Assembly (NCBI GenBank): GCA_025350865.1
Contig: JANXWZ010000189.1
Coordinates: 1 to 40,310 of the forward strand
DNA length: 40,310 nucleotides
Direction of reading: 5' to 3'
Source: Rhodanobacteraceae bacterium
GTDB taxonomy: Bacteria > Acidobacteriota > Terriglobia > Terriglobales > Acidobacteriaceae
Position 1 is the first letter of the stretch, and each line of letters begins with the position of its first letter. Shown piece after piece: positions 17,975 through 25,021 of the stretch. The notes under the pieces are model-generated. The model searched no databases, was not told the origin of the DNA, and was given only the letters and a program-made list of their open reading frames with translations. The position numbers and the translations under genes were made by a program.

Positions 17975-18054
17975 GTACCTAAAAGCCAAAGCAGCCCGGG
18001 GCGAACTATTCGTGTTGACGCCTCGACCTTGTATTCTGGGAGTTGGGAATATCT

Positions 18055-19152
18055 ATGACTAAGACAGAGAAGCATCCGTTGGAGAAAGTTCTTGAGCAGC
18101 GGATTGCCATTATCGACGGTGCGATGGGCACGACCATCCGGACATATGGGATGAAGGAAGCGGACATTCGCGGCGAGCGATTCCGCGACTCCGGCAAAGA
18201 TTTGCTGAACAACGGCGACCTGTTTTCGCTGACTCAGCCCAAAATGATCGGCGACATTCACCGGCGATTTCTGGAGGCGGGTGCCGACATTCTGGAGACC
18301 AATACGTTTGGCGCGACGAGCATTACGCAGAGCGAGTTTTTCGTCGACGACCCACGCGAGACCGGCGGGCGCAAAGACCCGGAGTTTTATCAGAAGGTAA
18401 TCGAAGATACGATGCTCGGCGACCTGGCGTGGGAGATCAATGAGACGTCCGCGCGGCAGTGTCGGGAGTGGGCGGATCGGGTGGGAAACGATACGGGGCG
18501 GCAGCGATTTGTGGCGGGGGCGATTGGGCCGCTGACGGTGTCGCTTTCGAACTCCCCAGATGCGGACGATGCCGGGTTTCGGGTAGTCACGTTCGATCAG
18601 GTGCGGACGGCGTACAAGCAGGAGGTTCGTGCACTGATTTCGGGAGGCGTCGACCTGTTGCTGGTGGAGACGATCTTCGATTCGTTGAACGCGAAGGCTG
18701 CGCTGGTCGCGATTCGTGAGGTCTTCGACGAGGATGGGAAAGACTTGCCGATCATGATTTCGGCGGCGGTTGGACGCGGAGGCGAAACGATGATTTCGGC
18801 GCAGACGACGGAGGCTTTCTGGAACGCGGTGAAGCATGTGAAGCCGCTTTCGATTGGGCTGAATTGTTCTCTGGGACCGGACCTGATGTACCCATTTTTG
18901 AGTGAGCTTTCGGAGAAGGCGGATGTGGCTGTTTCCTGCTATCCGAATGCGGGGCTGCCGAACCCACTGTCGGAGACGGGGTTCGACCTTGGGCCGGAGG
19001 ATATGGGCCGGTATCTGGGTGGCTTTGCGAAGGATGGGTTGATCAATATTGCGGGGGGATGCTGCGGGAATACTCCGGAGCATATTGCGGCGATTGCGAA
19101 GGCGTTGCAGGGTGTTGCGCCGCGTGAGTTGCGGGTTGAGGTGGCGGCTTGA
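18055..19152 (+). CDS. metH: Cobalamin-dependent methionine synthase, homocysteine-binding module (separate gene)
   Basis: 365 residues from the ATG at 18055; a TTG at 18043 is less likely. This is the Hcy S-methyltransferase domain (PF02574) alone: [33 protein letters not shown] and LLVETIFD. The zinc-ligand cysteines are in GLNCSLGP and [11 protein letters not shown]. It binds and activates homocysteine through zinc for methylation by the corrin domain. The remaining domains of MetH are encoded by the next gene, which overlaps this stop by 4 bases (TTGA). Split MetH is known in several phyla; here it matches modules of the single-chain enzyme end to end, so it is probably functional rather than broken. 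Confidence 0.9.
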
Positions 19153-21911
19153 AGGGTGGGAATAGTAGCGATCCGAACGACAACTACGGAGATTCTGGCT
19201 TCGCCAGAATGACGACAGTGGGGGGAATGACGACAGTTTCTGGGAAGCCGCTGCGGTTGTCGGGATCGCAGCCGTTTACGCAGCAGGCGGGCGTGTACAT
19301 CATGATCGGCGAGCGGACCAATGTGGCCGGGTCGCCGAAGTTCGCCAGGCTGGTGAAGGAAGGGAAGTACGAAGAGGCGGTCGCGATTGCGCGGCAGCAG
19401 GTGGAGAACGGCGCCAACGTGATCGACATCTGCATGGATGAGGGGATGATCGACGGCGTGGCCGCCATGACGCGCTACTTGCAACTGCTGGGCAGCGAGC
19501 CGGAGGTTGCAAAGGTTCCGTTCATGGTGGACTCCTCGAAGTGGGAGGTCGTCGAGGCGGGCTTGAAGTGCCTGCAGGGCAAGGGGATTGTGAACTCGAT
19601 CTCGCTGAAGGAGGGCGAGGAGAAGTTTCGCGAGAACGCCGCGAAGGTGATGAAGTATGGCGCGGCTGTGGTCGTGATGGCGTTCGATGAGCATGGCCAG
19701 GCGGCTACGCTTGGCGAGAAGATCCGCATCTGTTCGCGCGCTTACAAAATTCTTGTGGATGAGGTTGGTTTCCCGCCGGAAGACATCATCTTCGATCCAA
19801 ACATCCTGACCGTTGCTACCGGAATGGAAGAGCACAACAACTACGCGGTCGACTTTATCGAGGCGACGCGGTGGATCAAGGCGAACCTGCCGCACGCCAA
19901 GGTGTCGGGCGGCGTGTCGAACATTTCGTTCAGCTTTCGGGGCAATAACAAGGTTCGCGAGGCGATGCACTCGGCGTTTCTTTACCACGCGATCGCGGCG
20001 GGTATGGACATGGGCATCGTCAACGCCGGGATGTTGGAGGTGTACGAGGAGATTGAACCGGAGCTGAAGGTGCTGGTCGAGGACGTGCTGCTGAACCGGC
20101 GTCCGGATGCGACGGAGCGGCTGGTCGAGTATGGCGAGACGCTGAAGGCCGTGGGCACGATTGCGCAGGAAAAGAAGGCAGAGGAGTGGCGCAGCGGGTC
20201 GGTGGAGGATCGGCTTGCACATGCGCTGGTGCGCGGAATCGACGCCTACATTGAGATCGATGCGGAAGAGGCTCGCGTGAAGCTGGGACGGCCGCTCTTG
20301 GTGATCGAAGGGCCCCTGATGGCAGGGATGAGCATCGTCGGGGACCTTTTCGGCGCGGGCAAGATGTTTCTGCCGCAGGTGGTGAAGTCGGCGCGCGTGA
20401 TGAAGAAGGCCGTGGCTCACCTGACGCCGTTTATGGAGGCCGAGAAGGCTGCTCTGGAGGCAGCGGGGCATGTCGTCAAGGCCCAGGGGAAGATTTTGCT
20501 GGCGACGGTGAAGGGCGATGTTCATGACATTGGCAAGAACATCGTGGGTGTGGTGCTGGCTTGCAATAACTACGAGGTCATCGACATGGGGGTGATGGTC
20601 TCGAGTGAGAAGATTCTCGAGCGCGCCAAGGCGGAGAAGGCCGACATGATCGGGCTGAGCGGACTGATTACACCGTCGCTGGACGAGATGGTGCATGTGG
20701 CGAAAGAGATGGAGCGGCAGGGGTTTACCCTGCCTCTGCTGGTGGGCGGCGCGACGACCAGCCGCGCCCACACCGCTGTCAAGATCGCCCCGCATTACAG
20801 CCAGCCGGTGGTGCATGTGCTTGACGCCAGCCGTGCCGTGGGCGTGACGACGAGCCTGCTGAGTGACGATGGCAAAGCTGATTTCGTCGCGCAGCATCGG
20901 GCTGACTATGAAGCGCTGAGGAAGGCTCATGCCGCTCCGAAACAGGCTGTTGTGGCGTTGGCCACAGCGCGACAACGCAGGACGCCGATTGCATGGCGAG
21001 CCGAAGATTTGGCGACGCCGGAATTTACCGGAGCGCGGGTTCTGGATGACTTCCCGTTGGCGACGCTGCGCGAATACATCGATTGGACGCCGTTCTTCCA
21101 CACGTGGGGGATGAAGGGTATTTATCCGCGCATTCTGGATCACGCGGAGCAGGGTGTCGAGGCTAAGAAGATTTTTGAAGACGGCAATGCGCTTCTGGAC
21201 AGGATGATCGCGGCTAAGTCGATTACGGCGCGAGGCGTGTACGGGCTGTTTCCGGCGAACGCTGTTGGCGACGACGTCGAATTGGCGGGTGGGCCGCGTT
21301 TTCATTTTCTACGCCAGCAGGCGAATCGCGAGGGTAGTGAACCTTGCCGCTCGCTGGCGGACTTCATCGCCCCGCAGGAGACGGGGCTGCCGGACTCGAT
21401 CGGTGCTTTCGCGGTGACGACGGGCATCGGGCTAAAGGCTCTTTGCGACGATTTTCGAGCCGCGAACGACGACTACAACGCCATCATGGCGGAGGCACTG
21501 GCGGATCGGCTGGCCGAGGCGTTTGCAGAATGTTTGCATAAGCGGGTTCGCGACGAGTGGGGGTACGGTCGCGCTGAAGGGCTATCCCCGGCAGAGCTGA
21601 TTCAAGAGAAGTATCGCGGCATTCGCCCAGCACCGGGGTATCCGGCCTGTCCAGACCACACGGAGAAGGGGACGATCTGGAATTTGCTGAACGTGGAAGC
21701 CAACACCGGCATCAAGCTGACCGAATCTTTCGCGATGTGGCCGGGGTCGAGCGTTAGCGGGCTGTACTTCGCGCATCCGGAGGCGCGATATTTCTCGCTC
21801 GGAAAGATTGATCGCGACCAGGTTTCCGATTACGCTGCGCGAAAGGCCATGCCTGTGGTCGAGGTTGAACGTTGGTTGGGCCAAAACCTGAACTACGACC
21901 CTGCGGGGTAG
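19149..21911 (+). CDS. metH: Cobalamin-dependent methionine synthase, pterin/B12/activation modules
   Basis: 920 residues from the TTG at 19149 (GAGGTGG upstream); ATG at 19209 or 19227 are alternative starts. In order: the pterin-binding domain ([30 protein letters not shown]), the helical cap (about 320-420), and the B12 domain with [12 protein letters not shown], where His459 is the cobalt ligand of D-x-H-x-x-G. The AdoMet activation domain follows ([19 protein letters not shown], then [21 protein letters not shown] and [11 protein letters not shown]). It transfers the methyl of 5-methyltetrahydrofolate to homocysteine. The first 26 residues are encoded by repeat-like DNA, so the true start is probably at one of the ATGs. 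Confidence 0.93.
19192..19237. repeat. Hairpin plus 18-bp-spaced direct repeat at the metH split
   Basis: ATTCTGGC-TTC-GCCAGAAT is an 8-bp hairpin (19192-19210). It overlaps two copies of ATGACGACAGT (19209-19219 and 19227-19237). Both ATGs are in frame with the second metH gene. A similar hairpin followed by ATGACA is found at 40052-40076. Confidence 0.6.
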
Positions 21912-23104: not shown

Positions 23105-23133
23105 TTGCACGGCATGGGGTGTAGTGGTATAAC
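23105..23133 (+). promoter_or_regulatory. Predicted sigma70 promoter of the riboswitch-thrC-like operon
   Basis: TTGCAC (-35) and TATAAC (-10) with an optimal 17-base spacer. Transcription would start near 23140, about 24 bases before the riboswitch P1 helix, which fits a leader RNA. Confidence 0.6.
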
Positions 23134-23163
23134 CGAGTTATTCCGATCAGCTTCGGCTGGTTT

Positions 23164-23284
23164 GAATTTCATGCAGAGTGGTTGAGGGACGAGCCCTTTG
23201 ACGCCACGACAACCGGACAGAACAAAGGCGTACCGGTGTCAACTCTCTCCTGGAAGCGAAAGCTTTTGAGGGTACATGAGATTC
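23164..23284 (+). ncRNA. SAM-I-clan (S-box-like) riboswitch
   Basis: Elements read directly: P1 is GAATTTCATG (23164-23173) with CATGAGATTC (23275-23284), 10 bp with one T-G pair. P2 is GTGG (23178-23181) with CCAC (23204-23207), enclosing AGGG-ACGAG-CCCT, the GAGGGA...GCCC...TGA shape of the S-box kink-turn arm. GACAACC follows, as in the S-box core. P3 is ACCGG (23212-23216) with CCGGT (23233-23237). P4 has an AAGC-GAAA-GCTT tip. The layout matches SAM-I or SAM-I/IV riboswitches, which sense S-adenosylmethionine. No T-run terminator follows. A TCCTA (23360-23364) can pair with TAGGA of the SD (23389-23393), so control of translation is more likely. Confidence 0.8.
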
Positions 23285-23401
23285 GGAGTAGTGGGACACG
23301 GTTAAATCGTGATCCCGGTTGCCTACCCGCATTTCATTCCCCCTTCCAATTGAGTGGCGTCCTAGATAAGCCAGCCCCCTTTGCCCTTTAGGAGCTGAGC
23401 T

Positions 23402-24697
23402 TTGGAATATTCCTGTCAGACCTATGAGTTGAAGTGCAATGAGTGCGGTCGCCGCTTTGGCAATCGCCCGCTGTCCGGCTGCCCGGACTGCCTCGCACCA
23501 CTGGAAATCGCGTACGACCTCGACATCATCCGCAAGGAAGGCAAATTTACCCGCGCAAATATTGCGGCGGGGCCGTTTAATATCTGGCGATATGCTGCAC
23601 TTCTTCCCATTCCCGAGGGCTTTCAGCCGGATATTCCGGTGGGCTTCACGCCTTTGGTTCGGGCGCGGGGACTGGGGAAGCGCATCGGCGCGGACAATCT
23701 TTATGTGAAGAACGATGCAGTCTGCTTCCCAACGCTTTCGTTCAAGGATCGCGTGGTTTCCGTGGCGCTGGCAAACGCGCAGAAGTTTGGCTTCACGACT
23801 GTGGGCTGTTCGTCGACTGGAAACCTGGCCAATTCGGTTGCAGCGCAGGCGGCTCGTCTGGGGTTGAAGGCTACGATTCTGATTCCGGCGGATCTGGAGC
23901 CGGCAAAGATTTTGAACACGCTGGTGTATGGAGCGCGGCTGGTTCGGATCGATGGGAACTACGATCATGTGAACCGTCTCTGCACCCTCATTGCTGATGA
24001 ATATGATTATGGGTTTGTAAACGTGAACCTGCGGCCGTACTACGCGGAAGGCTCGAAGACGCAAGGGTACGAGATTGCCGAGCAACTCGGCTGGAAGCTG
24101 CCCGATAACGTCGTCTGCCCGATGGCCGGTGGGTCGCTGATCCGCAAAATTCGCAAGGCATTCAATGAGCTGATTGCGCTGGGCCTGGTGGAAGACAAGC
24201 CGGTTCGGTTCTTCGGTGCGCAGGCGACTGGCTGCTCGCCGATCTCCCAGTCCGTCCGCAATGGGTGGGATTACATTGAGCCGCAGCGCCCGAACACAAT
24301 CGCGCGGTCGCTCGCGATCGGCAACCCGGCAGACGGCCCGGCGGCCTCGAAGATGATCCGGTCGACCGGTGGCTGGGCTGAGGATGTGTCGGACGTCGAG
24401 CTAGTGGCTGGAATTCAGGAATTAGCGGAGACCGAGGGTATCTTCACCGAGACCGCCGGCGGCGTGACGACCGCGGTAACTGCTCGGCTGTACGCCCAGG
24501 GGCGCATCTCGGGCGACGAGACGACGGTGGTTTGCATTACCGGAAACGGTTTGAAGACGACCGATGCCCTTGCCCATCATTATGACCACATCGACGTTCG
24601 GGCAATTCGTCCGCGGCTTGTGGACTTTGTGGACTACATCGCGGCGCTAGATTGTCAGGATGTCGATGCGTTTCCAGAACCGGCTTTGGTTGGATAG
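23402..24697 (+). CDS. Threonine-synthase-family PLP enzyme, candidate O-phosphohomoserine-dependent homocysteine synthase (MetM-like)
   Basis: 431 residues, TTG start with TAGGAG 7 bases upstream. An N-terminal zinc ribbon (Cys12, Cys15, Cys27, Cys30) precedes the PLP fold: Lys115 in PTLSFKDR is the Schiff-base lysine. SSTGNLANSVAAQAARLGLK binds phosphate/PLP, and MAGGSLIRKI and TETAGGVTTA are further fold-II motifs. By family it is ThrC (O-phosphohomoserine to threonine). The SAM riboswitch in its leader and the sulfur-carrier gene 33 bp downstream argue instead for the MetM role: O-phosphohomoserine plus carrier thiocarboxylate giving homocysteine. The sequence alone cannot separate the two; a second thrC elsewhere in the genome would favour MetM. 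Confidence 0.88.
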   Translation: MEYSCQTYELKCNECGRRFGNRPLSGCPDCLAPLEIAYDLDIIRKEGKFTRANIAAGPFNIWRYAALLPIPEGFQPDIPVGFTPLVRARGLGKRIGADNLYVKNDAVCFPTLSFKDRVVSVALANAQKFGFTTVGCSSTGNLANSVAAQAARLGLKATILIPADLEPAKILNTLVYGARLVRIDGNYDHVNRLCTLIADEYDYGFVNVNLRPYYAEGSKTQGYEIAEQLGWKLPDNVVCPMAGGSLIRKIRKAFNELIALGLVEDKPVRFFGAQATGCSPISQSVRNGWDYIEPQRPNTIARSLAIGNPADGPAASKMIRSTGGWAEDVSDVELVAGIQELAETEGIFTETAGGVTTAVTARLYAQGRISGDETTVVCITGNGLKTTDALAHHYDHIDVRAIRPRLVDFVDYIAALDCQDVDAFPEPALVG

Positions 24698-24730
24698 TGG
24701 TAACCGCTCTTTCGAGAGCAAGGAGTGTAA

Positions 24731-25021
24731 GTGGCAATCAAAATTATTCTTCCGACGGCCTTTGTGCGACATACGGATGGGCAGAAGCAACTCTCGTCCG
24801 ATGCGGCAAATCTTCCCGCATTGATTCTCGATATCGATAAGAATTTTCCGGCTCTTTCGACGCAGATCAAGGACGAAAGCGGCAAGTTGCGGCGGTTCAT
24901 CAACATCTACGTGAACGACGAGGACATCCGCTTCCTTGGTGGCGATACCTACGTATTTCAGGATGGGGATGAAGTAATGCTAATTCCGTCGATTGCGGGT
25001 GGAACGGCCCGACTAAGCTGA
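24731..25021 (+). CDS. MoaD/ThiS-like ubiquitin-fold sulfur carrier protein (MetO/CysO-like)
   Basis: 96 residues, GTG start with AAGGAG 5 bases upstream. The MoaD/ThiS beta-grasp pattern is seen: IKIILPTAFVRHTDGQKQL, LRRFINIYVNDEDIRFLGG and QDGDEVMLIPSIAGG. The Gly-Gly that would carry the thiocarboxylate is at 90-91 but is followed by the tail TARLS. Carriers such as QbsE and HcyS also have tails, which are removed by a JAMM-type protease before activation. It is co-transcribed with the threonine-synthase-like gene and is probably its sulfur donor. No E1-like activator or JAMM protease gene lies in the window. Confidence 0.88.
   Translation: MAIKIILPTAFVRHTDGQKQLSSDAANLPALILDIDKNFPALSTQIKDESGKLRRFINIYVNDEDIRFLGGDTYVFQDGDEVMLIPSIAGGTARLS

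Follow-up and report, generated by a model that had tools for sequence, protein, structure and literature searches.

A SAM riboswitch ahead of a putative metM-metO operon for homocysteine synthesis in an acidobacterium, and its place in a probable SAM-RNA regulon of the class

Locus and Features

The window analysed here, a stretch of 40,310 nucleotides from the draft genome of a soil acidobacterium (contig JANXWZ010000189.1), carries an S-adenosylmethionine (SAM) riboswitch followed by a gene of the ThrC family and a gene for a small sulfur carrier. We interpret these genes as metM and metO and consider it highly probable that they form a SAM-repressed operon for the MetM/MetO route to homocysteine, an activity predicted from sequence. 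It corresponds to contig C40 in a genome (hereafter the host genome) that comprises 4.78 Mb in 246 contigs and is 99.83% complete, the stretch meant by "it" being the whole window. The features on which the argument depends are the following.

23166–23282, forward strand: SAM-I (S-box) riboswitch aptamer with helices P1–P4 (RF00162)
23275–23282, forward strand: 3' strand of P1, with an alternative partner at 23331–23337 (Rfam alignment; minimum-energy fold)
23331–23337, forward strand: candidate anti-P1 arm of the expression platform (minimum-energy fold)
23390–23394, forward strand: Shine-Dalgarno sequence AGGAG (read in the sequence)
23402–24697, forward strand: metM, ThrC-family enzyme dependent on pyridoxal phosphate, probable O-phosphohomoserine to homocysteine synthase, 431 aa
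24731–25021, forward strand: metO, ThiS/MoaD-like sulfur carrier, 96 aa, C-terminus AGG-TARLS
24998–25003, forward strand: Gly-Gly of the carrier, after which five further residues (TARLS) follow (translation)

The start codon of metM is a TTG with AGGAG 7 nt upstream, and metO begins 33 bp after the metM stop codon. An earlier reading of the same DNA (the original prediction) had described the ThrC-family gene and a MoaD/ThiS-like gene at this distance, and both assignments were recovered by Pfam models: the metM product matched PALP with 220.9 bits and the metO product matched ThiS (PF02597) with 43.6 bits.

Riboswitch and Leader

The original prediction of a leader of the SAM-I clan with helices P1–P4 was confirmed by a covariance-model match to RF00162, which covered the full model (1–108) at 62.7 bits against a gathering threshold of 44.4 (E-value 2.2e-12). 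No other Rfam family scored above gathering in the window, and this was the only RF00162 match found in the host genome, where 150 of 369 first-look candidates were scored. SAM-IV, a first guess taken from actinomycetes, was dropped as the riboswitch class because the window and the leader of the Nonomuraea gene described below both matched RF00162.

With 62.7 bits the window ranks third lowest among the 71 RF00162 matches of the class, and together with the TTG start codon this could mean that the aptamer is degenerate and that SAM sensing has been lost. The score nevertheless lies well above gathering, every helix is matched, and the aptamer core is largely invariant across 17 aligned leaders; we give a loss of sensing hardly any credence.

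In the ligand-free minimum-energy fold the AUGAGAU of the P1 3' strand pairs with AUUUCAU, and an ATTTCA-like element was seen by eye in several leaders of the same genus, not in all. The modelled unpaired fraction of the window Shine-Dalgarno sequence was 0.26 with P1 forced, 0.32 in the free ensemble, and 0.38 with P1 blocked. Among 16 modelled leaders, forcing P1 lowered Shine-Dalgarno accessibility relative to the free ensemble in 11, left it unchanged near zero in three, and raised it in two (L027, L039). The modelling lends weak support to translational repression by SAM, and since no terminator-like site was seen in the window leader, repression is probably exerted at translation.

Upstream of the aptamer the original prediction had placed a promoter with a 17-bp spacer. 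The two elements are present at this spacing, but they hold 8 of the 12 consensus bases, and the consensus scan reported 0 promoters against a mean of 0.9 in shuffled sequences.

23105–23133, forward strand: weak promoter-like TTGCAC-17-TATAAC (read in the sequence)

Phylogeny of the Enzyme

For the phylogenetic analysis a maximum likelihood tree of 65 rows was inferred, in which the window enzyme fell inside a 46-row MetM clade with 100/100 support. The clade spans Acidobacteriota, Cyanobacteriota, Nitrospinota, Armatimonadota, and others, and includes the actinomycete Nonomuraea gerenzanensis, whose metM has RF00162 directly upstream (68.7 bits) and a carrier gene with a product ending in GG 24 nt downstream. 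The two other ThrC homologues of the host genome (contigs C68 and C134) fell outside the clade, so that a second thrC, which the original prediction had named as a check along with the phylogeny of the enzyme, is present. MetM rows share the motifs NLRPYYAEGSK and ETAGG, at which the ThrC rows differ. The NCBIfam threonine synthase model PRK08197 (cut-off 303) was passed by the C68 protein with 488.2 and not by the window enzyme with 262.5.

Alternatively, SAM might simply lower the expression of an ordinary threonine synthase encoded by the window gene, with the carrier serving molybdopterin or thiamine synthesis. The enzyme belongs to the PALP family and scores 269.4 with the general model for threonine synthase, TIGR00260, above its cut-off of 167.1, and the corresponding pair of Streptomyces lividans is labelled threonine biosynthesis in the consulted part of PMC8079986. 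Against this, the genome holds two more ThrC homologues, one of them above the specific threonine synthase cut-off, and the MetM clade excludes both. Repression of ThrC at high SAM would moreover drive O-phosphohomoserine towards methionine, which is the wrong direction, and in three genomes an unlinked metO has a SAM-I switch of its own (see below). Phylogeny, genome content, and regulon thus led us to set aside an ordinary threonine synthase as very unlikely.

Homocysteine Genes in the Host Genome and in the Class

The host genome encodes a homoserine kinase (thrB, 208 bits over 168.25) and keeps its separate threonine synthase on C68. Enzymes of PF01053 (MetB, MetC, MetY, MetZ) were not found in the host draft, where eight weak matches reached at best 42.6 bits and the top three were two aminotransferase-like proteins and GcvP. 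MetA was not found at E-values up to 1e-20. Two MetX-like matches scored 140 and 104 bits, far below the 346–493 bits of MetX in the class, and were not accepted as MetX; they are alpha/beta hydrolases with better matches to other families over the cut-offs and with signal-peptide-like starts as judged by eye. The lack of metA, metX, metB, and metY, a further check named in the original prediction, was thus observed: no canonical homocysteine genes were detected in the host draft, in a search that did not include the HcyD/DUF39 route.

The survey of the class comprised 121 genomes. MetM was defined by at least 56% identity to the window protein, partial genes at contig ends included, and MetX was called at E-values up to 1e-80, a threshold of our own, as the curated cut-off of 500 bits was not attained anywhere in the class. 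MetM was found in 78 genomes, MetX in 31, and MetA in four, the two acyltransferases together in 32. MetM and an acyltransferase co-occurred in four genomes, while 74 had MetM only and 28 an acyltransferase only (Fisher p 1.2e-12, uncorrected for relatedness). Enzymes of PF01053 (E-value up to 1e-60) were present in 118 of the 121 genomes, MetM-bearing relatives among them, and a strict replacement of these enzymes by MetM is therefore out; the exceptions G000, G015, and G047 all have MetM. As judged from gene content, MetM replaces the homoserine acyltransferases and not the PF01053 enzymes.

The PF01053 genes bear on a reading that overlaps with ours, in which MetM would be bifunctional or would use free sulfide, MetO would be an accessory, and the relatives would have an extra homocysteine route, for example through a PF01053 enzyme that, like cystathionine gamma-synthase of plants, takes O-phosphohomoserine as its substrate. 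There are same-genus genomes with PF01053 genes in which neither MetX nor MetA was detected, and one of three same-genus loci inspected, G079:C32, has a tandem PF01053 pair with no cysteine-synthase-like neighbour; the metM loci at which no MetO was seen (see below) would also suit an accessory role. The host genome itself, however, has no detected PF01053 enzyme. In G053 and G025 (same genus) and G075 (same family) a cysteine-synthase-like gene precedes the PF01053 gene, and the G053 protein has its best match, below cut-off, to cystathionine gamma-lyase; context and score suggest reverse transsulfuration. We regard this combination of functions as unlikely, and MetM using the MetO thiocarboxylate remains the preferred reading.

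The Sulfur Carrier and Its Putative Partners

The closest solved structure to the metO product is 3dwg (1e-21), which we take to be CysO of M. tuberculosis. A MetO gene lay downstream of metM at 53 of the 78 loci; among the 51 products with readable ends, eight end in GG and 43 carry extra residues. The window carrier ends in GG-TARLS and therefore probably needs processing to expose its GG.

Two carrier-charging E1 enzymes were found in the host genome, a ThiF-type E1 on C230 and a MoeZ-like E1 with a rhodanese domain on C47. The C230 protein shares 44.5 and 48.4% identity with E1 proteins of relatives that are linked to metM or to SAM-I, respectively, compared with 31.1 and 34.7% for the C47 protein; the alignment with the metM-linked E1 extends over 346 residues for C230 and 241 for C47. 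Our first reading of the C47 protein as the MetO-charging enzyme was replaced for this reason. The C47 row (L020:261-3721) consists of genes for a CysM-like protein, a JAMM peptidase (PF14464), a sulfur carrier ending in GGCR, and the E1-rhodanese protein. Its JAMM peptidase is a candidate that may expose the GG of MetO.

SAM-Type Aptamers Ahead of metM

A SAM-type aptamer was present in every metM leader of the class not truncated by a contig end (74 leaders), SAM-I in 54 and SAM-II-like in 20. RF00162 was located 100–262 nt upstream of metM at 54 of the 78 loci. Among the 24 metM genes without it, four start at a contig end; for G101, which is among these four, an orphan RF00162 was located at the end of another contig. 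The leaders of the remaining 20 share the motif ACGTGGNGATTTA...TTGCTCCACGT...GCTAAA.

Seven SAM-II-like loci were searched against Rfam at E-values up to 0.5: four matched RF00521 (SAM-II) over its full length with 23–25 bits and three matched nothing, while at a further site of 86 nt RF00521 was the sole match (25.5 bits, E-value 1.8e-4). These scores of 23–25.5 bits are below the RF00521 gathering threshold of 36. Two microRNA families that appeared below cut-off in the search of the seven loci were taken as chance matches to long hairpins. In 22 aligned copies (20 distinct) the SAM-II-like sequences can form an H-type pseudoknot, with 99.2% of the cells of P1 and 95.0% of those of a 3-bp P2 paired; overall 97.8% of cells were paired, compared with 27–43% when the structure was slid along the alignment. 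P2 occurs as GU, GC, and AU, but the covariation was not significant (97 of 500 shuffles as high).

A model (R1) was built from the SAM-II-like copies and used to search the class. It returned 25 sites in 20 of the 121 genomes, exactly those with the motif; 22 of the 25 had been used to build the model, and those outside the alignment were the near-identical metM leaders of G107 and G110 and a site ahead of the gene for aspartate-semialdehyde dehydrogenase (asd). The other 24 sites stand ahead of metM, and the asd site is followed by a terminator-like hairpin as seen by eye. In the class searches with RF00162 and R1, filters were stricter and only some of the first-look candidates were scored, so that misses are possible. 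Tandem SAM-II-like copies occur in four genomes. Under a simple rule, terminator-like hairpins followed 11 of the 20 SAM-II-like leaders and 22 of 49 SAM-I leaders, a count that excludes five SAM-I leaders missed by the core pattern.

The SAM-II-like leaders lie among L044–L062 and L091–L103 (for example L094 and L103). Their rows occupy two separate parts of the tree, on which the distribution of SAM-I, SAM-II-like, and no aptamer requires a minimum of five changes. The Rfam scan also took in 20 of the 46 loci L118–L163 and 20 of the 34 loci L164–L197. Of the first set, named acidobacterial loci, 18 had RF00162 and two (L133, L152) the SAM-II-like motif; the sole match in the second set, 19 of which are from other phyla, was the acidobacterial L193. 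The SAM sensor ahead of metM has probably been exchanged in places for an unrelated class within Acidobacteriota. Two structurally unrelated SAM aptamers ahead of the same gene amount to a natural experiment.

A Proposed SAM-RNA Regulon Beyond metM Leaders

In the class, 17 RF00162 sites have no metM behind them on their own contig, and all were inspected. In three congeneric genomes (G046, G101, and G119) RF00162 heads metO and an aspartokinase gene, and no metO was seen beside metM in the 1770, 1755, and only 236 bases examined downstream, respectively; metO thus keeps a SAM sensor when it moves. Aspartokinase-like genes stand behind RF00162 in G070 and in G116, where a PF01053 gene and asd come next. 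The site heads a PF01053 gene in G014, G041, G074, and G104, a SufS gene with a ThiF-type E1 gene in G068, and a cysteine-desulfurase-like gene in G022 and G086; another of the 17 is the G101 orphan at a contig end.

The metM operons of relatives contain further candidate genes. In the family f8 a ThiF-type E1 gene takes the place of metO after metM at all ten loci (L065, L068, L075, L077, L079, L080, L081, L084, L088, L104) and is followed by a cysteine-desulfurase-like gene at eight; SAM-I scored 95–99 bits at the eight f8 loci with a readable leader. At seven loci of other families (L059, L070, L071, L072, L082, L085, L098) metM is followed by a homoserine-kinase-like gene whose product shares 35–40% identity with the host ThrB. 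Such a kinase would tie the supply of O-phosphohomoserine to the same riboswitch, so that both this supply and the charging of the carrier appear in metM operons. The loci of G027 and G080 consist of SAM-I followed by metM, a PF01053 gene, and metX, in this order.

Two further kinds of RF00162 site were observed. In G097, G077, and G100, one genus of the family f5, RF00162 (60–66 bits) precedes a gene for a MoxR-like AAA ATPase (L114, L250, L251), downstream of which no sulfur or methionine gene was recognised. In G113 (L115:254-1823) it stands ahead of a gene for a 455-aa protein with no Pfam or NCBIfam match. These sites do not fit the regulon that we propose.

Taken together, it is likely that the entire acidobacterial route to homocysteine by way of a thiocarboxylate forms a SAM-RNA regulon with an exchanged sensor class, mostly SAM-I and otherwise a SAM-II-like RNA with a short P2, and that this regulon includes unlinked metO, E1, cysteine desulfurase, aspartokinase, and asd. 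Such a regulon argues for a joint function of MetM with MetO, the charging E1, and cysteine desulfurase.

Proposed Route to Homocysteine

In the proposed route homoserine kinase would supply O-phosphohomoserine, from which MetM would remove the phosphate while the C-terminal thiocarboxylate of MetO adds to the gamma carbon to give homocysteine. MetO would most likely be charged by the ThiF-type E1 on C230, which is favoured because it resembles the E1 encoded after metM in f8 more closely; the alternative is the MoeZ-like E1 on C47. The C47 JAMM peptidase may trim the TARLS tail, free homocysteine, or do both. When SAM is high it would bind the S-box aptamer, P1 would form, and expression would drop, probably at translation.

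The homocysteine would then be methylated by a split MetH encoded in the same window, which ends 1.49 kb before metM, in agreement with the 1.5 kb given in the original prediction. Its two open reading frames overlap by 4 nt and place the homocysteine domain apart from the pterin, B12, and activation domains; between MetH and metM lies a DinB-like gene on the opposite strand (Pfam).

18043–19152, forward strand: split MetH, homocysteine-binding half (PF02574, 265.3 bits)
19149–21911, forward strand: split MetH, pterin/B12/activation half (PF00809, PF02607, PF02310, PF02965)

Besides the TIGR00260 match, several observations weigh against this interpretation. At 25 of the 78 metM loci no same-strand MetO was seen in the 236 to 4839 bases examined downstream. 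In the class, 15 of the 121 genomes lack MetM as well as any detected acyltransferase. The absence of PF01053 is limited to the host draft (246 contigs), G015, and G047, and the 14 other surveyed genomes of the genus each keep one to four PF01053 genes. The placement of MetM rests on the Nonomuraea and cyanobacterial homologues in a tree that does not contain S. albulus MetM, and the tree program flagged long branches, Nonomuraea and several ThrC rows among them, all of which were kept. Finally, the consulted part of PMC12172450 states that methionine was not increased by a Microcystis relative, for which it emphasises a role as threonine deaminase; it gives 51.6% identity between the Microcystis protein and S. 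albulus MetM.

The reading of the window as MetM/MetO under SAM feedback, which the original prediction had advanced, is nonetheless strongly supported by sequence comparison, in which the Rfam match, the gene order, the phylogeny, the separate ThrC, the genome content, and the comparative regulon agree. Of the outcomes that the original prediction had named as grounds for refutation, none was observed. Automatic annotation would call the window enzyme a threonine synthase, as it passes TIGR00260, and would leave the host seemingly unable to make homocysteine; the same misnaming would presumably apply to many of the 78 MetM-bearing genomes among the 121 of the class.

Comparison With Known Systems

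The MetM/MetO pathway of Streptomyces albulus was reportedly described by Hasebe et al. in 2024 (AEM 90:e01247-24). The original prediction knew of no report that pairs the riboswitch with MetM/MetO, but such pairings are in print: excerpts of PMC12172450 (citing Hasebe et al., 2024) state that S. albulus metM has an upstream SAM riboswitch and that Microcystis thrC lacks one, and those of PMC8079986 place RF00162 upstream of SLIV_16930-SLIV_16925 of S. lividans under the label "Threonine biosynthesis". The metM-metO pair of Nonomuraea also has RF00162. Among the matches listed in our literature searches, which left most subscription papers uncovered, no report was found of a riboswitch-metM/metO pairing in Acidobacteriota, nor of a SAM-II-like metM leader or a separate metO switch. 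A SAM riboswitch ahead of metM is thus already in print; as far as these searches show, the newer part is the exchange of sensors together with the regulon.

The leaders of the relatives resemble SAM-II (RF00521) in the match to the full model, in P1, and in the conserved GAUUU, UUGC, and GCUAAA. They differ from it in scores of 23–25.5 bits (below 36), in a shorter P2, and in their occurrence in Acidobacteriota. They gave no match to the "SAM-II long loops" family named in the consulted part of PMC2864571.

Two other systems use related parts. In M. tuberculosis, CysO, CysM, Mec, and MoeZ serve cysteine synthesis. The window carrier is nearest to 3dwg and the host C47 row holds CysM-like, JAMM, carrier, and E1-rhodanese genes as in that system, of which the product is cysteine and not homocysteine. 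In Wolinella, HcyS, HcyF, and HcyD work with MetY, a protein thiocarboxylate being the sulfur donor for homocysteine and a metallopeptidase the processing enzyme. Unlike the putative route of the window, this system starts from O-acetylhomoserine, and its enzyme belongs to PF01053 and not to the ThrC type.

The S. lividans pair has the same riboswitch family ahead of two genes labelled threonine biosynthesis, to which the consulted part of PMC8079986 assigns no MetM/MetO function. Closest to the window is the S. albulus system, which shares with it a ThrC-like enzyme, an adjacent carrier, an upstream SAM riboswitch, and the absence of canonical homocysteine genes. The two differ in phylum, in the residues that follow GG in the window carrier, and in that the activity of the window enzyme is a predicted one; on this prediction the Streptomyces pathway would extend to another phylum.

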